From: an uncultured Pelagibacteraceae bacterium
GTDB taxonomy: Bacteria > Pseudomonadota > Alphaproteobacteria > Pelagibacterales > Pelagibacteraceae
Length of the DNA: 34,384 bases
Assembly: GCA_902544345.1 (NCBI GenBank)
Contig: CACCBT010000006.1
Span: forward strand, 1-34,384
Direction: 5' to 3'
A program made the position numbers and the translations under genes. The notes beneath the pieces were generated by a model, which worked only from the letters and a program-made list of their open reading frames with translations, was not told where the DNA came from and made no database searches. Each line of letters opens with the position of its first letter. The first letter of the stretch is position 1. Below are positions 17,425 to 29,427 of this stretch, in pieces.

Positions 17425-17464
17425 TTTTGAATTAATTATTGAATCTATCCAAAAGAGTTTTATA

Positions 17465-17552
17465 TTAATAGTGTTGGTTTTCCAACTATGACGATAAACG
17501 AATTTCGTAATAAACATCACGGACGTGGGGGCAGTACCCACCACCTCCACCA
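17465..17552 (+). ncRNA. ssrA: tmRNA, acceptor piece of a permuted two-piece ssrA
   Basis: The 3' half of tmRNA precedes the 5' half, as in alphaproteobacterial permuted genes. The T stem-loop is GTGGG, loop GGCAGTA, then CCCAC (about 17525-17541). The acceptor 3' strand CACCTCC and an encoded ACCA end at 17552. CACCTCC pairs with GGGGGTG at the start of the coding piece. The 5' boundary is uncertain; a GTTGG-TTTT-CCAAC hairpin at 17473-17486 lies near it. The piece is charged with alanine and tags proteins on stalled ribosomes. Confidence 0.85.
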
Positions 17553-17564
17553 TTTACAACTTAC

Positions 17565-17733
17565 GGGGGTGAATTAGGATCGACGGGTGTCTAAAAGCTG
17601 TTCTTTCGTACGAGATGGTTCCGACGTAACGGGCTAATTTATAAATGCAAATCAAAAATTTGCACTTGCAGCTTAATTAACTTAGTTAATTAAGTTACGG
17701 GGTCTTGGGGCACCTGGCAACAGAACGCCCCTG
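17565..17733 (+). ncRNA. ssrA: tmRNA, coding piece of a permuted two-piece ssrA
   Basis: The piece begins GGGGGTG (acceptor 5' strand), followed by GAATTAGGATCGACGGG, the D-loop-like tmRNA signature. The tag frame is at 17647-17676: resume codon GCA after TAAAT, reading ANQKFALAA then TAA. A perfect 9-bp inverted repeat (CTTAATTAA/TTAATTAAG) follows the tag. The 3' end is a GGGGC/GCCCC stem (17707-17711 and 17727-17731) around the loop ACCTGGCAACAGAAC, which I recognise as the conserved end of alphaproteobacterial tmRNA coding pieces. The 12-nt spacer to the acceptor piece (17553-17564) would be excised. This 3' end is the parent of all the dispersed core repeats downstream. Confidence 0.85.
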
Positions 17734-17826
17734 CGTATTGGCGTTAACACTTATTAATTCACAACTTTTTTTATTTAGGACTCACATAGGACTCAGTGAA
17801 GAAAGACAAACTTAGTGAGCGGGGGA
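17701..17826 (+). repeat. Core copy R0 with type-B left end (within and after ssrA)
   Basis: Core AACAGAACGCCCC at 17719-17731 is part of the functional tmRNA. The roughly 95 bases beyond it, starting CTGCGTATTGGCG, are nearly the same as those after copy R4 (26801-26896). They contain GGACTCA twice, 11 bp apart (17778-17784 and 17789-17795), then GTGAAGAAAGACAA and GCGGGGGAA. They are interpreted as the left end of the first element. Confidence 0.85.
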
Positions 17827-19221: not shown

Positions 19222-19352
19222 GGACTCATCATAACTGGACTCACTGGTGGGCACAATACGGACTCACCTAGCAAAGAAATAGCCGTTTTTAATGATCTAG
19301 AATTGTTGTATAACGTTAAAAGGTTAAGGGCACCTGGCAACAGAACGCCCCT
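19222..19352 (+). repeat. Type-B right end and core copy R1
   Basis: Four heptamers lie at 19222, 19237, 19249 and 19260 (GGACTCA, GGACTCA, GGGCACA, GGACTCA), spaced 15, 12 and 11 bp. A conserved tract follows (AAATAGCCGTTTTT to AATTGTTGTATAA), then GGTTAAGGGCACCTGGC and the core at 19339-19351. The same layout with identical spacings occurs before R5. The GGACTCA repeats match those at the left end of this interval (17778-17795). Confidence 0.85.
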
Positions 19353-19356
19353 TAAC

Positions 19357-19371
19357 CAACGGAAACCGTTG
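19357..19371. repeat. Perfect 6-bp inverted repeat next to R1
   Basis: CAACGG-AAA-CCGTTG is a short perfect hairpin just beyond core R1, in the left end of the restriction-modification-like element. It may be a recombinase or terminator structure; nothing further can be said from sequence. Confidence 0.4.
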
Positions 19372-19399
19372 ATCCGATTAAAATATCAAATTTAGAACA

Positions 19400-19433
19400 A
19401 CACGAAGTTTTACACGAAGTTTACACGAAGTTT
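19400..19433 (+). repeat. ACACGAAG direct repeats, left end of the RM-like element
   Basis: ACACGAAG occurs at 19400, 19412 and 19423, each followed by TTT, with spacings of 12 and 11 bp. The same octamer occurs three times at the other end of this interval (24607-24671) and was not noticed elsewhere in the window. It is interpreted as arm-type recombinase-binding sites specific to this element. Confidence 0.8.
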
Positions 19434-19453
19434 TAAATCAAAAATTTACGAAC

Positions 19454-19627
19454 TTATTTTTTATTTTTTATTTTAAAACCTTGAGATTCAAGTACTTTGA
19501 TCAAATTTTTTAACTTTTGCTCTCGAGATGTATTTGAGTCCCCTATTTTTTCAAAAAATATTGGTTTTAAACCTCTATCTTTTTTTGATTTAAAATAGTT
19601 TTTTAGTGATTGTATTTTTAGTTTCAT
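19454..19627 (-). CDS. Small basic protein, 57 residues
   Basis: The frame runs from an ATG at 19627 with an AGGAGA ribosome-binding site just upstream (19631-19636), one of the clearest in this region. The product (MKLKIQSLKNYFKSKKDRG ... KIKNKK) is very lysine-rich with a possible helix near SREQKLKNLIKVLESQ. I recognise no family. It is divergent from the gene at 19783 and lies at the edge of the RM-like cluster. A regulatory role is possible from position and size alone. Confidence 0.5.
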   Translation of the reverse strand: MKLKIQSLKNYFKSKKDRGLKPIFFEKIGDSNTSREQKLKNLIKVLESQGFKIKNKK

Positions 19628-19651
19628 TTTTCTCCTTTAGCGTTTTGTTTA

Positions 19652-19688
19652 TAGTCCTAGCAAGTAAAGTTTTTTTAAATCAGGACTA
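19652..19688. promoter_or_regulatory. Inverted repeat in divergent promoter region
   Basis: TAGTCCT (19652-19658) and AGGACTA (19682-19688) form a perfect 7-bp inverted repeat, 23 bases apart, between the divergent 57-residue and 110-residue genes. The gap (19628-19782) must hold the promoters of both. An operator for a cluster regulator is plausible but not shown. Confidence 0.3.
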
Positions 19689-19782
19689 AATCAATACTAA
19701 CAAATCTACAAATTTTTGCCACTATTATTCAATAATATATAAATTGTTAAAGTTGACATCAAAACTTTAATAACTCCAAAAT

Positions 19783-20115
19783 ATGCAACAACTAGAACTG
19801 TTTGATTTCAGAAGAGATATTCTTTTTGAAAGAGATAATCAAATCGCTCGTTTTTATGATGTCCTTAGCGAAACTAATGACGGAATAAGTTATGCTGAAC
19901 ATATAGATCCCAAAAAAAAATTCTCTATATGTGGTATGGATTATGAAGAGTATGTAGACGTTAAAAAGAAATTCTTAAAGGGTTTGACTTATGACCAAAT
20001 ACTCAATTACTTAAAGAAATTTAAGAAGGAAGAAAGATTAGAAAAATATAAAATCTTACTTAAATTTAGAAACATACCTTTTGATGCTGATTTATTTACT
20101 TGGAATAGCGATTAA
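19783..20115 (+). CDS. Hypothetical protein at start of RM-like cluster
   Basis: A 110-residue protein beginning MQQLELFDFRRDILFERDNQ, charged, with no signal peptide or membrane segment. The MQQLELFDF opening resembles beta-clamp-binding (QLxLF) peptides seen in DNA-processing proteins, but this is only a short-motif match. It lies 90 bases upstream of the DNA methyltransferase on the same strand. An upstream TTGACA-like hexamer near 19755 could be part of its promoter. Function is unknown. Confidence 0.6.
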   Translation: MQQLELFDFRRDILFERDNQIARFYDVLSETNDGISYAEHIDPKKKFSICGMDYEEYVDVKKKFLKGLTYDQILNYLKKFKKEERLEKYKILLKFRNIPFDADLFTWNSD

Positions 20116-20204
20116 TTAAATTAAGACCGTTATACTTGCATCTGCGCGTATAACACAACTTGAGACTACATCTAAAAAATATTTCTGATATAAGTTTCTA
20201 ATAT

Positions 20205-21005
20205 ATGGCAGAAAAAATGAATAATCTCTCAGGTAGTGAATGGTTACAGGAGTCATTTTCTATTTGGAGAGGGATCAAGAAAACTAAAGAAGAATTACTA
20301 ACAAAACACCCTGCTTTATTCCCTCAAAAATTACCTCAAAAATTAATAAATCTTTACACAAAAAAAAATGGTGAGTTAATACTAGATCCCTTCATGGGAA
20401 TCGGTTCTACTTTATTGGGATCCATGAACTCAGGTGTAAAATCTATTGGTTTAGATTTAAATAAATCATATGTCTCACTAGCAAAAAAGAGAATTAAAAA
20501 ATATCAAAAAGATTTGTTTAATGAAAAAAAAGTCTTTGAACCTAAAGTTATATGTGATGATGCAAATAATCTTTTAAAATATGTAAAAAAAGAAAGTGTA
20601 GATCTAGCAATAACATCTCCACCATACTGGAACATTTTAAATCAAAAAAGAACTGCTGATCATAAAGAAATTAGAACTTACTCTAAATCAAAAAAAGATT
20701 TAGGAAATATTGAAGATTACGAAAAATTTTTAAATTCTCTAAAAGAAGTGTTTTCAAAAGTATATGATGCACTTAAATTCAACAAAAGATGTATCTCTGT
20801 AGTTATGGATATCAGGAAAAAAGACAAGTTTTTCCCCTTACATGAAGATCAAACAAGAATAATGAAAGAAATAGGTTTTGAGTTAGAGGAATATGTAATT
20901 TGGGATAGACAAATAGATTATAATAATATGAAAACCTTGGGGTACCCATATGTTTTTAGATTTAACAAAGTGCATGAATTTATATGCATATATTGGAAAA
21001 GATAA
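20205..21005 (+). CDS. DNA methyltransferase with TSPPYW motif (N4-cytosine or N6-adenine)
   Basis: A 266-residue amino-methyltransferase. The SAM-binding motif DPFMGIGSTLLG (residues 61-72) precedes the catalytic TSPPYW (residues 137-142), the motif order of gamma-type enzymes. S/TSPPYW is common in N4-cytosine enzymes but also occurs in adenine enzymes, so the modified base is uncertain. No separate target-recognition domain is obvious beyond the C-terminal 100 residues. The gene converges with the nuclease-like gene at 21006 (the two are adjacent with no gap), and a second methyltransferase lies 0.75 kb away. It is the modification component of a probable restriction-modification locus. 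Confidence 0.88.
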   Translation: MAEKMNNLSGSEWLQESFSIWRGIKKTKEELLTKHPALFPQKLPQKLINLYTKKNGELILDPFMGIGSTLLGSMNSGVKSIGLDLNKSYVSLAKKRIKKYQKDLFNEKKVFEPKVICDDANNLLKYVKKESVDLAITSPPYWNILNQKRTADHKEIRTYSKSKKDLGNIEDYEKFLNSLKEVFSKVYDALKFNKRCISVVMDIRKKDKFFPLHEDQTRIMKEIGFELEEYVIWDRQIDYNNMKTLGYPYVFRFNKVHEFICIYWKR

Positions 21006-21758
21006 TTAAAATAAATTCTTAAAAATTAATTTTTTATTACATTTTTTTTCTATATAAACTTTAACTTCATTTGCAGTTTCTGACCTTATAGTTCTTGGAA
21101 GTCCTATAAAATTAAATTCTTTTTCTAAATCTTTATAAAGTTCATGAAATTTATTAAAATTATTTAATTTTAATTCTTTTGATAAAAAATCTTTAAATGA
21201 GGACATTTCTCTAAAATCGATATTAACTCTTGGTGTTGTGGAACCTGATGAAAAATAGTTTCGATTTTGTTTTTCTGTGAATAATGTTTTGATTTTTTCT
21301 ATATAATCACAAAAAATTAATTCAGGGTTATATGTACATAATGCAAGTACTGCTACTTTAATTCCTGCTTTTTGATAAAGCATGTAAGTTGTATATGCTT
21401 CTCTTTCAATTAAACCTAAATTGTCTAAAGTAATATTTTCATTCAAAGTTTTATTAATTAAATCTGGTAAAGTTTTTAAATAAACAGGAGTAAACATTAC
21501 CTTTGTGTCTAAAAAAAAACTTTCGATTTTATTACTTTTATCTAGAACAATTAAATCTGGTAAATATCTTAGCATCAAGATGGTCTTGTTTTTCTTCAAA
21601 AAATCTGATTGCCAAACATTTGGTTGTTCTTTTGTTAAAGATTGTTTGAATTTTTCTGTGGGTAATACAATTAGATCTAAATCCTGAAAAAATTTAGTTA
21701 TTTTATTTTCTAAGACTTTTCCTATGGGTAATCTCAAATCTGTAAAATTATTACTCAT
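21006..21758 (-). CDS. Putative PD-(D/E)XK nuclease
   Basis: A 250-residue protein without an obvious close family. A PD-(D/E)XK-type active site can be read: LRYLPDLIVL (Pro-Asp at residues 67-68) followed by SFFLDTKVMF (Asp-Thr-Lys at 84-86), the usual spacing for a core beta hairpin. It is encoded 1 base after the stop of the MT-A70-type methyltransferase, all on the minus strand. The position between two methyltransferases makes it a candidate restriction endonuclease. The fold call is by motif only. Confidence 0.55.
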   Translation of the reverse strand: MSNNFTDLRLPIGKVLENKITKFFQDLDLIVLPTEKFKQSLTKEQPNVWQSDFLKKNKTILMLRYLPDLIVLDKSNKIESFFLDTKVMFTPVYLKTLPDLINKTLNENITLDNLGLIEREAYTTYMLYQKAGIKVAVLALCTYNPELIFCDYIEKIKTLFTEKQNRNYFSSGSTTPRVNIDFREMSSFKDFLSKELKLNNFNKFHELYKDLEKEFNFIGLPRTIRSETANEVKVYIEKKCNKKLIFKNLF

Positions 21759-21759
21759 T

Positions 21760-22431
21760 TTACATTTTAAAATTTAATTGATTTGAATTTTTATTTTTAG
21801 TTGGTTTTTTTTTAACATTTACCTCTAATTTACCATACTCATTTCCCCAACCTTTAAATCCAATTCTTTTCTGTCTTGCAAAAACATCGAGTTTTTTTCC
21901 TTTAAAATATTTATGAATTAGTTGATAAAATTCATCGGGTTTAACAGAATGTGCAGATGAACTTGCGGCAAAACATGTTTTCATTTTTCCTAAACATTTT
22001 TTTTCAAATTTTGCTGTCCCTTTATAACCAAATAACAAATGTTCTGTTGTAATTTGATAAGGACCAAATGGACAAGGTCCAGTTTTCTTATCCCATGTAA
22101 TCATAGTATAGAAATTAAATCCCCATTCATTCAGTAAATCAAAACCAGTTTTTATTATTGGTTCTTTTGTTTTTTTATCTTTACTATTTGTTACCCATAA
22201 CCAAATAAAACAATTATTTTTTGACCATTCATTAATTGGAAGTTTTATAATTTCTTCTTTGCTTAAAGTTGGATAATCTAATTTTTTTGTTTGATTAGGT
22301 CTTACTCCCCTATAACCTGTTTTACCTTGATTCCATGGTGGGTCGACTACCAAAACATCGAACTTTTCAGTGTTCTTAATTTTGCATTTTCTGCTAATTT
22401 TATCAAAATATTGTTTAATATTTTTATTCAT
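21760..22431 (-). CDS. MT-A70-family adenine methyltransferase
   Basis: A 223-residue protein. The catalytic DPPW motif is at residues 30-33 (VLVVDPPWNQGKTGYRGVRP), followed by WLWVTNSKDKKT and TEHLLFGYKGTAKF, the pattern of MT-A70 N6-adenine methyltransferases used in prokaryotic DNA modification. The C-terminus (FARQKRIGFKGWGNEYG) is also typical. Its ATG overlaps the stop of the upstream 163-residue gene by 8 bases, so they are coupled. With the TSPPYW enzyme it gives the locus two methyltransferases, as expected for an asymmetric recognition site. Confidence 0.88.
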   Translation of the reverse strand: MNKNIKQYFDKISRKCKIKNTEKFDVLVVDPPWNQGKTGYRGVRPNQTKKLDYPTLSKEEIIKLPINEWSKNNCFIWLWVTNSKDKKTKEPIIKTGFDLLNEWGFNFYTMITWDKKTGPCPFGPYQITTEHLLFGYKGTAKFEKKCLGKMKTCFAASSSAHSVKPDEFYQLIHKYFKGKKLDVFARQKRIGFKGWGNEYGKLEVNVKKKPTKNKNSNQLNFKM

Positions 22432-22915
22432 CTAGTAACCTTCTGCATGCTAATGGTATAATTGATTCTTTTCTAATATTTTCATTATCATCATTAAAGG
22501 CAAAAATAATTAAATTCTTATCATTATAATTTACTAGTTTTTTATTAAAATTATCATCGATCATGAAGAAACTAATTTCTTCAGAGTGACCTTTGCGAGA
22601 AATCAAGAAAGAGAATGTTGGGTTTATTATTTTATTAAAGCACATAATCTCCCCTATCTCTCTCAAACCTACTGACTTGTGTGTTCTATTTATTAGCATA
22701 ATCTCAAATTTTTCATTCGATGTGTTTTGAATAATAACAGTGAAATCTGGAGTAAAGCACCAACTTGAATAACTTTTAAAATTTTTAATATATTCATTAT
22801 TAATTTTTGATAAATCTTCTGATTTAATAATGTCTACTAATTTATAATTTTTTTGTTTTGATATGAATTTTTTAATCCAAATTTCAATTTTATTTTCTAA
22901 AATACTATCAGACAT
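22424..22915 (-). CDS. Degenerate nuclease-like paralogue of the neighbouring C-terminal domain
   Basis: A 163-residue protein whose segment SVGLREIGEIMCFNKIINPTF (about residues 81-100) aligns with SLGVKELGQIWSYSVLANPFQ in the C-terminal domain of the adjacent 553-residue protein. The catalytic proline-aspartate is kept (TPDFTV, 56-57), but the position of the partner's ESK reads INR (75-77), so the active site looks lost. It overlaps both neighbours by 8 bases. It is probably a non-catalytic or DNA-binding partner of the larger nuclease; that role is inferred. Confidence 0.6.
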   Translation of the reverse strand: MSDSILENKIEIWIKKFISKQKNYKLVDIIKSEDLSKINNEYIKNFKSYSSWCFTPDFTVIIQNTSNEKFEIMLINRTHKSVGLREIGEIMCFNKIINPTFSFLISRKGHSEEISFFMIDDNFNKKLVNYNDKNLIIFAFNDDNENIRKESIIPLACRRLLDE

Positions 22916-24569
22916 TAAATAGTTTTACTCCTTTTTTGATATTAAATTGACCAAAAATAATTTCTTTATTTTCGTTAAAATTTAAAAACTTTTTATCTTT
23001 ATTTTGTGCATAAACATTTAACAGAGATTTTGATATTTCTTTAGTAGAGATCAAAAAACTTTGGAAAGGATTTGCTAGAACTGAATACGACCAAATTTGT
23101 CCTAATTCTTTTACACCTAAGGAAACAATTTTACTTTCTATAAAGAAAATTTTATTCGATTTTTTTGATATACCAATTATGTCTGGTCGAATATTTAGAT
23201 CGTCTAAATTCTTGATTTTTTGTCTATATTTATCTGATGCCTTAAAATTCATTGAAAAATAATTTGCTAGAGTTTGAGATGATGTATCAAAAACATCACT
23301 ATCTTCATTAAATTTTTGTTTTATATAAGATTTCAACCAAATTATTAGGGGTTTATAAGTATCAATTTCAGAGATATTTTTATTTCTTTTTTTAATTTTA
23401 GTTTTAACTTTTTTTGGATGAGTTTTAATTATCTCCTCAAATTTTTTTTTTGCAGTTTGATTAAATATTTCATTAATCTTTTTAAAATCAGTTTTTTCTT
23501 TACTTCCATTAATTTGATAGATACTTTTGTTTTTAGAACTTAGCATTTCCTTTTCTAAATTTTTACAACCCATAAATAAATTTATTTGCCAGGAAGCATT
23601 TATATGTTTTCCTCTCAATCTTTCAGAGATTCTTATGTCATTATTCATAGGATGATATGGTTTTATATCTTTTTGCTCTATCTTTCGATTTGCTACTAAC
23701 CAATCTTCCACTTTATTATTAAAATCAACTTTTTGATTATGATTTAACAATTCTTTAAATAAAGTTTTTTTAGGTTCTAATCTTATTTTAAAGTTTTGAA
23801 GAGTTTCAGGCAGTAGTTTTATTTGATGTTCTTTGAAAGCACCATTTGGAGACTGCTGATGATGAAAATAATCTAAGGATGGATCAACAATATTTGGATG
23901 CCCCCACCTTATAGTTTGTGTTGGAATTTTAAAATTATCCCTTAAAAAGTTGTCAATTTGAATTGGTAAATTCCAATTTCTTACAATTTGCAAGTATACT
24001 CTCATCCTGGTATTTCCATTTTTTCCAGTTCTTGGATACCAGTTTCCTTGATTGAAAAAACCACATGTATCTAACAATCCATTAACAAACTCTGTTTTAA
24101 ATTCATTGCTCTCTTTGTTTAAACCGTCATCTATCTCAAAATTATCAAAACCAGTTTTTCCATGAAAAAAAATTGTTATAAATTCAATAATTTTTTTACT
24201 CTTAATATCTAAAATCAATATAGTTGTTGAATCTGTTGATAAAATTTGATGTTCAAAAGATAAGTTTTTTTTTAAAAAAGGTATAATATTTTCATCAATT
24301 GATTTTCGTGCATTTTCTTTTTGATTAAATATTTTTCTTACATTTCTATCAATGCAATTACTTCTTGAATTATTACAATTTGAGTTTTTACATTTTAAAA
24401 GATCAGAAAAACCAGTTGCTAACCATCCACATTTGGGACAATGAGCAATACCTTCAAGATATTTGTCTTTATGATTAAAATTTATTGCTAAGTTATTATT
24501 ACTTAAAATATTTCCTTTTCCACAAATCAAACCTAATAAATAAAATAAACCTGTATTTTTCATTATCAC
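22908..24569 (-). CDS. Large putative restriction enzyme: LAGLIDADG-like motifs plus PD-(D/E)XK domain
   Basis: A 553-residue protein. Near the N-terminus, FYLLGLICGKGNI (9-21) resembles a LAGLIDADG helix. Four cysteines at 44, 47, 60 and 65 form a probable zinc finger. A second LAGLIDADG-like stretch, FVNGLLDTCGFF (161-172), follows. The middle is lysine-rich. The C-terminal 95 residues hold a PD-(D/E)XK site: NIRPDIIGISKKSNKIFFIESK (Pro-Asp 462-463, Glu-Ser-Lys 478-480). It would be a DNA-recognition module joined to a nuclease. It is the first gene of the four-gene minus-strand part of the locus. A homing-endonuclease reading is possible, but the methyltransferase neighbours favour restriction. 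Confidence 0.6.
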   Translation of the reverse strand: MIMKNTGLFYLLGLICGKGNILSNNNLAINFNHKDKYLEGIAHCPKCGWLATGFSDLLKCKNSNCNNSRSNCIDRNVRKIFNQKENARKSIDENIIPFLKKNLSFEHQILSTDSTTILILDIKSKKIIEFITIFFHGKTGFDNFEIDDGLNKESNEFKTEFVNGLLDTCGFFNQGNWYPRTGKNGNTRMRVYLQIVRNWNLPIQIDNFLRDNFKIPTQTIRWGHPNIVDPSLDYFHHQQSPNGAFKEHQIKLLPETLQNFKIRLEPKKTLFKELLNHNQKVDFNNKVEDWLVANRKIEQKDIKPYHPMNNDIRISERLRGKHINASWQINLFMGCKNLEKEMLSSKNKSIYQINGSKEKTDFKKINEIFNQTAKKKFEEIIKTHPKKVKTKIKKRNKNISEIDTYKPLIIWLKSYIKQKFNEDSDVFDTSSQTLANYFSMNFKASDKYRQKIKNLDDLNIRPDIIGISKKSNKIFFIESKIVSLGVKELGQIWSYSVLANPFQSFLISTKEISKSLLNVYAQNKDKKFLNFNENKEIIFGQFNIKKGVKLFNV

Positions 24570-24606
24570 AAGTTTAGCGTTATTATTTTAATTATTCCAT
24601 ATCTCT

Positions 24607-24731
24607 ACACGAAGTTGAAAGTCAAGAAATCGGCAAAATGAGCAAAACACTACACGAAGTTTTACACGAAGTTTTTGAAAAAGTGTTATATTCTGTATTA
24701 TTAATCAAGGGACGAGAAACAGAACGCCCCT
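24607..24731 (+). repeat. Type-C right end and core copy R2
   Basis: ACACGAAG occurs at 24607, 24652 and 24664 (spacing 45 then 12), followed by TTTTTGAAAAAGTGTTATATTCTG and the core AACAGAACGCCCC (24718-24730). The left half of the tmRNA-like repeat (GGCACCTGGC) is absent here. The layout parallels the R3 flank, but with a different repeated word. Confidence 0.82.
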
Positions 24732-25757
24732 TTAATTTAAATATTTATCCAAAGTTTTTTTATCTGAGACGATAATAAAATCATCAAAATGAATAGATTG
24801 ATTGGGGTATTTAATTCCAATTTGTTTTCCCGAGTCTCTATAAACACCTATTCTTACATTAGTACCAGTGGATTCTCCTTTCCAATCAGATGTTATACCT
24901 TTGTAATCAAATATTAATTTATTATCTTTGAAGATTTCTACAAAACCAGTTTCTTGTCTAGTATTATAAATGCCAATTTTGTAAGTGGTCCATTTTCCTA
25001 ATTTAGTAATTTTTAATGATTTATTTTGTGTAAGTTTAAAATTATTTTTTATTTTTTTTTCACCTCTAGTTTTTTCTTGAAACACTAACCAATTTGAATC
25101 ATTTTTTTTATATTTTATATCAATACGATGCTTAATATTATCTTCTTTATTCCTTCTATTGAAACCAGTACCCGCAGTATTGCCGACTATTTTTAATGTT
25201 TTCCCAGTATCATCAAAACTTATTCTTACAAGAGGATGCGTTCTCATAGATGCATCTCGATTTTTAAATTCAAAAAACGTTACTCTGCCATCTATATGTT
25301 TAAAATCTTCAGGAAGTCTTGTTTTAAAACCAATCCATATTTCTTTATTTAAAGTGCTTCTTTGCTTTGTCTCAAATATTGCTCTTTCTGTCTCTTTTCC
25401 TGACCCTTCTTTAAGAGGATCATTATTCCATCCGTGTTTCAATGTAACTTCAAGATACTTATTGCCATCAAGATCTTTTTTAACTTTAAATGGTTTTAAA
25501 CCTGCTCCCTTATCATAGATTCGAAATATTTGGTTGAATGATTTTTCTGTACCCCCACCAGTAGCAGGATTTGAAGATGAAGGGTTAAGGTTGGCAACTT
25601 TTAGTTTTCCTTCTTCTTGATTTTCAAAGTCCTCAAAGAAATTCCATGGCGACTTTACCTTTTTATTTACATAATCTGGAACAGGTACCTTTTCCCAACT
25701 AAATGTAGTAATTGGAAATGATAAAATAAAAATAATTATAAATAAAATTATCCTCAT
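24732..25757 (-). CDS. Secreted polysaccharide-lyase-like protein
   Basis: About 341 residues from the ATG at 25757 (MRIILFIIIFILSFPITTFS, a clear signal peptide). A start 14 codons further upstream at 25799 would put a second hydrophobic stretch before it. The mature part is a beta-rich, concanavalin-like domain. Its features (IFETKQRSTLNKEIWIGFK, WTTYKIGIYNTRQETGFVEIFKDNKLI, and VRIGVYRDSG with SIHFDDFII at the end) match the heparin-lyase-type polysaccharide lyase family. It probably acts in the periplasm or outside on an acidic glycan; the substrate is unknown. It fills its whole element: the stop lies at the end of core R2. Confidence 0.65.
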   Translation of the reverse strand: MRIILFIIIFILSFPITTFSWEKVPVPDYVNKKVKSPWNFFEDFENQEEGKLKVANLNPSSSNPATGGGTEKSFNQIFRIYDKGAGLKPFKVKKDLDGNKYLEVTLKHGWNNDPLKEGSGKETERAIFETKQRSTLNKEIWIGFKTRLPEDFKHIDGRVTFFEFKNRDASMRTHPLVRISFDDTGKTLKIVGNTAGTGFNRRNKEDNIKHRIDIKYKKNDSNWLVFQEKTRGEKKIKNNFKLTQNKSLKITKLGKWTTYKIGIYNTRQETGFVEIFKDNKLIFDYKGITSDWKGESTGTNVRIGVYRDSGKQIGIKYPNQSIHFDDFIIVSDKKTLDKYLN

Positions 25758-25882
25758 TATGAAAGAATATAAGAATATTATTAAAACAAATAAATACATT
25801 TATTTGTTTTAATAAATTGAAATATAAATTTTAGTGCAATTTCAGGTTCTAGGGTACGATAAGAGAGTACTTGCCCCCAATT

Positions 25883-26009
25883 TCAATGAAGTTTCAAAAC
25901 AAGGTTTGGGGCAAAAGTTAAAAATTTCAATGAAGTCCTCAATGAAGTCTTTCAAAAAAGTGTTATTTTCTGTTATAAATTGGTTTAAAGGGTAAAACAG
26001 AACGCCCCT
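25883..26009 (+). repeat. Type-C right end and core copy R3
   Basis: TCAATGAAG occurs at 25883, 25927 and 25939 (spacing 44 then 12), nearly the same geometry as the ACACGAAG set before R2. AAAAAAGTGTTATTTTCTG follows, then the core at 25996-26008. GGCACCTGGC is again absent. The parallel layout with a different word is strong evidence for element-specific binding sites. Confidence 0.82.
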
Positions 26010-26668: not shown

Positions 26669-26690
26669 TAAGAATCTAGCATAAAAATTG
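26669..26690 (-). promoter_or_regulatory. Conserved TATGCTAG-type promoter-like tract
   Basis: On the minus strand, TATGCTAGATTCTTAAAGT lies just before the ATG at 26664. The gene at 29289 has TATGCTAGGATCGTAAAGC in the same position. TATGCT resembles a -10 hexamer placed about 15 bases before the start. This is based on two copies within one element type. Confidence 0.4.
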
Positions 26691-26896
26691 CCGATCCTCT
26701 GCCGAAATTTCCTTCAAAGTTTTAGATTTTTAACAGTTGAAAATGGCTAATAATAAGGAATAACGTTAAAAGGTTAAGGGCACCTGGCAACAGGACGCCC
26801 CTGCGTATTGGCGTTAACACTTATTAATTCACAACTTTTTTTAAATAGATCACAATAGGATCACACTGAAGAAAGACAAGTACCATCGGCGGGGGA
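26690..26896 (+). repeat. Type-A right end, core copy R4 and type-B left end
   Basis: GCCGA occurs at 26690 and 26701 (11 bp apart), followed by TTTTAGATTTTT, AATAAGGAATAACG and GGTTAAGGGCACCTGGC, then the core (26789-26801, one change: AACAGGACGCCCC). Beyond it the sequence nearly equals that after ssrA (17731-17826). However, the GGACTCA pair is replaced by GATCACA at 26848 and 26859, at the same 11-bp spacing. Confidence 0.82.
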
Positions 26897-27344: not shown

Positions 27345-28183
27345 TAGTTTATATATTCTTTAATGATAGATCCAACTGTTGCCATAGACCTTAATCCGTG
27401 ACCTCCATCAATAATATGTAACTTAACTTGTAGTTTTTTCTTTTTAAGTAAATCATAATAATATTTTGAAACTCCTGGAGCTGTATTTTTATCATCTTTT
27501 CCAACAATTAATATGTTGAGAGATTTTAAATCTATATCTTTATAATTGAAACTTGGTGAGTTTTTTTTTAATTCTTTCAATTGAGATTTGGTTTCCCATT
27601 TTTTACCGTTGCTTAGTTTTTTTCTAGTTTCCCAGTCACACGGGCAAGAGATCAAAATATTTATATCAACTAATCCTGGTACTTTTCCATGAATAGTACC
27701 TCCCTGATAAGCTCCTCCAGAATGACCAATTAAAATTAGTTTTTTTGGTTTATAATATTTTTTAAGATTTTGTAATGCAGGTGCTAGTATTTGAAAATTT
27801 TTCCAATCATAATTTACCACTGTACTCTTTATAGCGTTACGAGGTCCTGATGAATATCTATCCTCTTCACTACTGCCTCTTTCTCTAATAAAGTAACCAG
27901 GTCTTGCAAAAAGAAAAATATTGTTATTATCGTTTATTAATTCTTTTGCAAATCTAATTTGACTTTTTTTGGGTATTCCTGGTCTTGGAGAATTAGGACT
28001 ACCATCACCATGAAGAAATACTATTAAGTTTTTTTTACCCTTTTCAATCTTTCCTAAATTTAAAATTGCTATACATTTGTTTTTACTTGCTGATATATAT
28101 TTTATGAAATCCTCTTTTTCACAAGCATTAGAGTTTCCACTCAACAGCAAACCTAGAACCACGATCCCTAAAAGTTTTTTCAT
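27344..28183 (-). CDS. Secreted alpha/beta hydrolase
   Basis: About 279 residues from the ATG at 28183, with signal peptide MKKLLGIVVLGLLLSGNSNA. The hydrolase features are the oxyanion region LIVFLHGDGSPNSPRPGIP, the nucleophile elbow LILIGHSGGAYQGG (Ser) and the C-terminal His in IIDGGHGLRS, in family order. The frame extends 11 codons further to a GTG inside the element-end repeats, which I do not accept as the start. Substrate is unknown; a periplasmic esterase is likely. It is co-transcribed with the 142-residue gene. Confidence 0.75.
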   Translation of the reverse strand: MKKLLGIVVLGLLLSGNSNACEKEDFIKYISASKNKCIAILNLGKIEKGKKNLIVFLHGDGSPNSPRPGIPKKSQIRFAKELINDNNNIFLFARPGYFIRERGSSEEDRYSSGPRNAIKSTVVNYDWKNFQILAPALQNLKKYYKPKKLILIGHSGGAYQGGTIHGKVPGLVDINILISCPCDWETRKKLSNGKKWETKSQLKELKKNSPSFNYKDIDLKSLNILIVGKDDKNTAPGVSKYYYDLLKKKKLQVKLHIIDGGHGLRSMATVGSIIKEYIN

Positions 28184-28311
28184 AGACTCATCATATCCGG
28201 ACTCACTGGCGATCACAATACGGACTCACCCAGCAAAGAAATAGCCGTTTTTTATGATCTAGAATTGTTGTATAAAGTTAAAGGTTAAGGGCACCTGGCA
28301 TAACGCCCCTT
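28184..28311 (+). repeat. Type-B right end and core copy R5
   Basis: Heptamers lie at 28184, 28199, 28211 and 28222 (AGACTCA, GGACTCA, GATCACA, GGACTCA), with the same 15, 12, 11 spacing as before R1. The tract CAGCAAAGAAATAGCCG and GGTTAAGGGCACCTGGC follow. The core is shortened by a small deletion (GGCATAACGCCCC, ending 28309). One heptamer is GATCACA, the word found at this interval's left end. Confidence 0.8.
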
Positions 28312-28400
28312 ATAACTGTAAAATTTTCTCTCATTAATATTAATTATTAAATTTGTGAATCCTAGCAGGGCGGAGCTTTGGCGGAATTTTCACTGAAGTT
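28312..28400 (+). repeat. Type-A left end after R5
   Basis: An AT-rich tract resembling that after R3 and R8 is followed by ATCCTAGCA, then GGGCGGA (28368) and TGGCGGA (28379) 11 bp apart, and GAAGTTTTAG. The same words (TCCTAGCA, GGGCGGA/GGGTGGA, GGTTTTAG) recur at the right end of this interval (29298-29350). The tract overlaps the last codons of the gene at 28390. Confidence 0.8.
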
Positions 28401-29296: not shown

Positions 29297-29427
29297 GATC
29301 CTAGCATAAGTTTGGGCGGAGTTGGGGTGGAATTTCAATTGAGGTTTTAGATTTGATTCAATTACAAATGTTGTTTAATAAGGAATAATGTTACAAGGTT
29401 AATGGCACCTGGCAACAGAACGCTCCT
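29297..29427 (+). repeat. Type-A right end and core copy R6
   Basis: GATCCTAGCATAAG is followed by GGGCGGA (29314) and GGGTGGA (29325) 11 bp apart, GAGGTTTTAGATTT, AATAAGGAATAATG and GGTTAATGGCACCTGGC, then the core (29414-29426, AACAGAACGCTCC). It matches the R4 flank in layout and this interval's own left end in repeat word. Confidence 0.8.

Follow-up and report, generated by a model that had tools for sequence, protein, structure and literature searches.

Background

Arm-type integrase sites are known from a handful of model phages. In the attP of lambda, for example, the N-terminal domain of the integrase binds repeats on the arms (P1, P2 and P'1-P'3), while its C-terminal part works at the core (PMC4880445). 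Here we analyse a window of 34,384 nucleotides, which is the entire contig C6 (CACCBT010000006.1) of a SAR11-type genome of 737 kb and ~60% completeness (uncultured Pelagibacteraceae bacterium, GCA_902544345.1). In the window, elements inserted at ssrA, the gene of the transfer-messenger RNA (tmRNA), form a tandem array. We focus on R2 and R3, the right ends of two of these elements (E2 and E3), where three copies of a short word precede a conserved tract and a core. These ends are most likely attR arms of lambda-type (heterobivalent) integrase elements that are now without an integrase, and the words are putative arm-type integrase sites; we put the probability of this reading at about 0.88.

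As in lambda attP, short direct repeats stand on either side of the core. Unlike lambda, the SAR11 elements keep the ssrA core and vary the arm word, and they have three words per arm at spacings of 11-12 and 45 bp. Between lambda and HK022 the situation is the opposite, the difference being mainly in core recognition. The best-supported reading of the system is a lambda-type arrangement in which the arm word, not the core, varies between elements.

Arrays at RNA genes have been described elsewhere. The ssrA islands of Dehalococcoides (vcr-GEI and its neighbours) consist of tandem modules bounded by repeats, ~20 bp long, of the 3' end of ssrA; an integrase is present in the first modules (PMC2764846). 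The parts of that account drawn on here match the SAR11 array in its tandem modules and ssrA repeats, and do not mention arm words; the phylum differs, and the SAR11 integrase is divergent and mostly missing. Similarly, the additive flexible genomic islands of Methylopumilus are cargo arrays at tRNA-Lys marked by repeats of its 3' end (PMC10872708). As far as the sections of the literature considered here describe them, both these islands and the tycheposons of streamlined marine bacteria resemble our locus as cargo arrays at an RNA gene with 3'-end repeats. Their target is a tRNA, served in tycheposons by a tyrosine recombinase, whereas the target here is the tmRNA, and switching arm words are not mentioned in those sections. 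Phage satellites (PICI, PLE, PICMI) and VEIMEs are likewise integrase-bearing and occupy a single chromosomal site, and two SAR11 elements carry T4-type sliding clamp or clamp-loader genes. Satellites are packaged in virions of a helper phage, whereas the SAR11 elements show no sign of packaging and had no phage or viral relative in the collections searched. Finally, integron arrays are also tandem, with mostly one-gene cassettes, a short core between them and little in common between different genomes. They differ in their site, which in integrons is attC, recombined as a folded single strand, and in SAR11 is the ssrA 3' end, and the fetched islands contain no PF00589 match indicative of an IntI, their integrases all belonging to the new family described below. 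No described counterpart of the whole system was found in the open-access literature searched, which does not prove it undescribed.

Results

Two right ends with one layout

E2 (19339-24730, cores at 19339 and 24718) ends in R2, and E3 (24718-26008) ends in R3. At R2 the word ACACGAAG is matched exactly at 24607-24614 and twice within 24652-24671 (starts 24652 and 24664), and at R3 TCAATGAAG is matched exactly at 25883-25891 and twice within 25927-25947 (starts 25927 and 25939), all on the plus strand. These positions agree with the preliminary description of this DNA, which had given intervals of 45 and 12 bp before R2 and of 44 and 12 bp before R3. Behind both triplets follow, as it had also reported, a tract of the form AAAGTGTTAT-N-TTCTG and then the core. 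On the plus strand, the R2 tract AAAGTGTTATATTCTG occupies 24680-24695 and the R3 tract AAAGTGTTATTTTCTG 25957-25972; both are conserved, and ends of this type are termed type C. The core AACAGAACGCCCC lies at 24718-24730, where it is the right core of E2 and the left core of the next element, and at 25996-26008 as the right core of E3. Each of these cores repeats the ssrA 3' end. That the two words are different holds for their 5' halves, but not for the ending GAAG(T), which they share.

In the window ACACGAAG occurs six times, always on the plus strand (19400, 19412, 19423, 24607, 24652 and 24664), whereas 100 dinucleotide shuffles average 0.31 occurrences and never exceed 2. All six copies are confined to the two ends of E2. 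Three indeed stand before the right end, where they had first been noticed, but the three left-arm copies (19400-19430; 60, 72 and 83 bp past the start of ACAGAACG) lie outside the segment described earlier. The word TCAATGAAG is present in the R3 triplet and at two unrelated single sites, 879 and 14772 (mean 0.60 and maximum 3 in the shuffles).

Integrase-bearing elements with the same layout

No integrase gene is present in the elements of the window. Three full-length integrase-bearing ssrA elements were found in related genomes, each with its own word: G519 (10.4 kb, CTACGAAG, six copies), G364 (9.4 kb, CAACGAAG, six copies) and G047 (a class C3 element, TATGTACC, five copies). Integrase-bearing elements span 7.6-10.4 kb at one chromosomal site. 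The words lie at 62/74/85 bp from the left core in E2, 63/75/86 in G519, 62/74/85 in G364 and 64/75/87 in G047, and the gaps in the right arm are 45/12, 45/11, 45/12 and 12 bp, respectively. In all four (4/4) the element's own word is restricted to its ends and is the same at both, and the words of the other elements are absent, save for one stray ACACGAAG in G519. Arm repeats thus flank the core on both sides in E2, G519, G364 and G047, though not in the element of R3. The R2 tract, also written AAAAAGTGTTATATTCTG, is identical in G047, and the core half GGGACGAGAA is common to R2 (class C1) and G364. Since R2 and G364 combine the same core half with different words, arm and core recognition appear to be separable.

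Adjoining the right-end words, each of the three elements has a gene for a divergent tyrosine recombinase. Its open frame comprises 409-434 codons and ends 8-11 bp upstream of word copy 2; that of G047 has 409 codons and stops 8 bp before this copy. The G047 integrase is recognised neither by Pfam nor by PHROGs, and the Pfam phage-integrase match of family members scanned singly is weak (best E 0.0009). Relatives of the G047 protein came from a search of the order, two of them in the complete ssrA elements G519 and G364, and integrase remnants adjoin right ends in G356, G447, G471 and G550. The recombinase active-site residues R235, K269, R345 and Y377 (G047 numbering) are common to six full-length members. 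An AlphaFold model of the G047 protein, built from the family alignment (mean pLDDT 83, pTM 0.54), resembles Cre, Tn1549 Int and XerH in Foldseek (best E 4e-5, probability 1.00), so that the family appears to combine a tyrosine-recombinase fold with the catalytic R, K, R, Y. The N-terminus of the model is predicted to form strands and then a helix, an order known from arm-binding domains.

Known integrases were considered as partners of the ends and rejected: among the Pfam phage-integrase matches of the genus Xer-like proteins predominate, and of the remainder that were examined most are neighbours of tRNA genes, without an ssrA core in the vicinity. Resolvase-type recombinases, present in 2 of 169 genomes, were rejected as well. 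In most same-genus genomes, even ~98% complete ones, an Xer-type recombinase of 309 or 325 codons is the sole Pfam phage-integrase match.

Type-C ends in related genomes

Scanning bacterial genomes for the tract together with the core yielded 27 ends, spread over 25 contigs and with one exception from Pelagibacteraceae; L105, L107, L115, L116 and L098 are places already among the known loci, and the two ends of the window were added. The set comprises 28 type-C ends in three classes, C1 with ACACGAAG, C2 with TCAATGAAG and C3 with TATGTACC. Collecting further ends, as the preliminary description had proposed, bore out the layout: three copies at 45/12 are present in 14 of the 15 ordinary C1 ends (in two of them with a one-base variant), and 44/12 is found in every one of the six C2 ends. 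One C1 end (L112) has lost a word copy. Another four C1 ends (L106, L107, L108 and L110) are collapsed into mini-elements of 129-140 bp, the left end being joined directly to the right one; recombination between word repeats is their probable origin. Among C1 elements of ordinary length with an available left core, 11/11 have the same word in the left arm, at ~60, 72 and 83 bp from that core (two copies in one element), and both C3 elements likewise have left-arm words.

Among 103 unselected upstream core flanks, exact 8-mer pairs were found at an offset of 12 bp in 16 and of 11 bp in 8, and hardly elsewhere; shuffles give 0.2 and 0.0, respectively. A permutation of word copies 2 and 3 is biased and not independent, because an exact pair was the criterion for including an end; we rely instead on copy 1, on the left arms and on the integrase-bearing elements. 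The low permutation scores of L262 and L066 reflect an out-of-register automatic choice of word and are not counter-evidence.

Words inside integrase codons

Words can extend into coding sequence. Word copy 1 of G519 lies within the last integrase codons, and in one end family the integrase tail of G364, TCAACGAAATCAACGAAG (STKSTK), is matched at the same place in the G550 remnant by ACAATGAAGACAATGAAG (TMKTMK); the words beyond the stop differ between the two in the same way as the coding copies. At R2, the spacer between copies 1 and 2 (24615-24651, plus strand) reads TKLKVKKSAK-stop, the integrase end of G519 TKNQNKKSDK-stop. Identity at this homologous position is 22/37 bases, a value reached by 130 of 200000 shuffles. 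This is moderate evidence that the spacer represents the last codons and stop of a lost integrase.

At R3, an open frame of 55 codons (25828-25995, plus strand) spans the words and stops at the core. Seven C2-type ends preserve such a frame, 49-59 codons long, which is similar to the tail of the integrase remnant of G447 (E 6e-5, single comparison); it is probably a vestigial integrase C-terminus. Copy 1 is read in another codon phase (NFNEV) than copies 2 and 3 (SMK), and therefore the DNA word is what is kept. An alternative reading of the R3 spacer as an integrase tail, SMKFQNKVWGKS-stop, was discarded: other C2 ends do not maintain that frame, and the conserved frame ends at the core.

Discussion

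A putative arm code at a conserved core

Three related elements combine the geometry of R2 and R3 with an integrase adjoining the words, and we therefore read R2 and R3 as attR arms of elements that are now integrase-less. The integrases that insert these elements very probably dock at the words. A lambda-type tyrosine integrase would insert the elements at the ssrA 3' end, its small N-terminal domain gripping the arm words and its catalytic part acting at the ssrA core. Each integrase lineage would have its own word, and for this reason all arm copies at both ends would change together, while spacing, tract and core would stay, set by the shared architecture and by attB. E2 and E3 would have lost the integrase gene, with R2 and R3 keeping its apparent last codons; these would include word copy 1 at R2 and all three copies at R3. 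Under this scheme the word change may track the N-terminal domain, and integrase-less elements could be moved in trans. The preliminary description had proposed a concerted change of the words at a fixed layout, typical of protein-binding sites after a switch in specificity. Independent elements with other words keep the geometry, which supports the proposal, with a recombinase as the putative binding partner.

Several observations weigh against this interpretation. Neither ACACGAAG nor TCAATGAAG was found as the word of an intact integrase, members of the integrase family are rare (1/169 same-genus genomes), and three complete integrases whose words are known do not suffice to tie the word change to N-terminal residues. 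The fossil codons at R2 stand on 22/37 bases. Left-arm words were found in 0/5 C2 elements, including that of R3, whose word TCAATGAAG has no left-end counterpart there. The three C3 right ends have two copies 12 bp apart, with the same tract as in C1 and C2. Words are mixed within the ends L052 and L066, and in L268/L096 the left and right arms of one stretch carry different words, so that the same-word rule is not absolute. The earlier expectation that further ends would share three copies and this spacing thus holds for C1 and C2, but not for C3 or for L112, L052 and L066, which are deleted or mixed.

Alternatively, the words could bind a separate accessory protein, such as an excisionase or a host DNA-bending factor, rather than the integrase. 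Xis-type proteins also use direct-repeat sites near att cores, and other conserved small proteins in the elements could serve in this role. Excisionase sites of lambda, for their part, are found on one arm. The words, unlike these sites, stand on both arms at fixed distances (for the layout of the sites in lambda, see PMC4880445); moreover, a host factor would not switch specificity element by element inside one genus, and the N-terminal strand-helix domain predicted for the integrase is suited to arm binding. We therefore regard an accessory protein as an unlikely reader of the words. The conserved tract, lying between arm and core, is a candidate site for an accessory bending protein (IHF, Xis).

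Two further explanations do without binding. The likeness of words within an end might stem from recent local duplication or gene conversion, as the ~22 bp common to the left and right arms of C1 would allow, and recombination between arms did give the mini-elements of ~130-140 bp (L106, L107, L108 and L110). Yet copies 5 to 10 kb apart have the same word in different surroundings, the spacing is constant across words, and the switch also occurs within integrase codons, with copy 1 of R3 in a phase of its own; the coding-sequence copies and the conserved spacing largely refute this explanation, which we consider highly improbable. Hardly any more credible is the retention of the R3 repeats as a protein-coding repeat. 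The 49-59-codon frame that reaches the core is conserved in seven ends, reading SMKSSMKSFKKV, but the shift in phase between NFNEV and SMK speaks against it, the C2 frame has no consistent start codon, and R2 and C3 show the same layout in non-coding words.

If the words are integrase sites, the arm word might act as an address code: an integrase would move its own element and integrase-less cargo with the same word, but not neighbours that share the core, and selection for insulation would drive the concerted switches. We offer this tentatively, as the less probable outcome, and word diversification as insulation of tandem neighbours is a guess. The material nevertheless forms a natural series in one of the most abundant groups of ocean bacteria, with the same core and geometry, different arm words and three complete integrases, which makes specificity change in the arm-binding domain, and insulation at one attachment site, directly testable. 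It also points to a tmRNA-anchored island throughout this SAR11 genus, fed by integrase-bearing elements that Pfam and PHROGs hardly recognise.

The ssrA array, its cargo and neighbouring end families

The permuted tmRNA gene ssrA lies at 17435-17735 on the plus strand (Rfam alpha_tmRNA 214.8 bits, E 2.5e-61; tmRNA according to ARAGORN). Its 3' end, GGCACCTGGCAACAGAACGCCCC, is the attachment site (attB) repeated by the array, and repeats downstream, with a total of 11 junctions 0.4 to 5.4 kb apart in the window. Of 169 genomes in the genus, 134 contain the core AACAGAACGCCCC, with a maximum of seven copies per genome. Clustering by sequence of 110 cassettes, taken from 37 arrays, gives 98 clusters. 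Armless single-gene cassettes of ~360 bp recur across genomes (L050:6588, L054:1346, L059:4371; L056, L057, L239), and since they have different neighbours in different genomes they appear to be shuffled between arrays.

In E2 the matching arms enclose DNA methyltransferase cargo, possibly of a restriction-modification system: a DNA methyltransferase gene at 20205-21005 on the plus strand (PF01555, E 1.2e-29; PADLOC MTase_II, E 5.4e-46) and an MT-A70 methyltransferase gene at 21760-22431 on the minus strand (PF05063, E 1.1e-25). E3 has one gene, polysaccharide-lyase-like, at 24732-25799 on the minus strand (PF14099, E 1e-13).

The three integrase elements (L261, L262 and L220) have in common a 128-codon protein with 71-82% identity, small secreted proteins and a recombinase of the resolvase type, and therefore look like one element family. 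Genes for a T4-type gp45 sliding clamp and clamp loader are found at L262:9137-9877 and L261:8876-9505 (PHROG E 1.5e-41 and 3.2e-53). The clamp genes hint at a link with T4-like SAR11 phages, and the integrase elements may be phage satellites. No match to the ends or the integrase was found in the viral contigs and phage records searched. A phage origin of the ends was rejected: scans of viral contigs for the R2/R3 pattern, for the word pair of C1, for a family-A end and for two core patterns yielded no matching end; core matches there were due to chance or to other tmRNA genes, and BLAST of the ends against phage records gave nothing of note. Low-GC IMG/VR contigs with a permuted-type tmRNA 3' end carry the same core without arm words (L137, L141, L145, L147, L157, L162, L171 and L185).

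Other end families occur nearby. One, with GGACTCA, GATCACA, GGGCACA and similar words, is found in the window at 17780-17800, 19240-19290, 26840-26870 and 28180-28240, and in L052, L055, L062 and L063. It shows word exchange on a conserved background, as 17708-17809 and 26778-26879 are 86% identical with different words, and its words are often mixed within one end. In another family, paired words of the form CGnAAT (TGCCGAAAT, GGCGGAAT, GGTCGTAAT, CACGTAAT and GACGCAAT) precede a common tract AAGGAATAATGTTACAAAG; its sites are 26690-26790, 28370-28400 and 29310-29414 in the window, and L058 and L060. A possible further family (L015, L051 and L053) has TCTTCTAGT, TTCCAGT and CACCTAGT at 11 bp ahead of a common tract.
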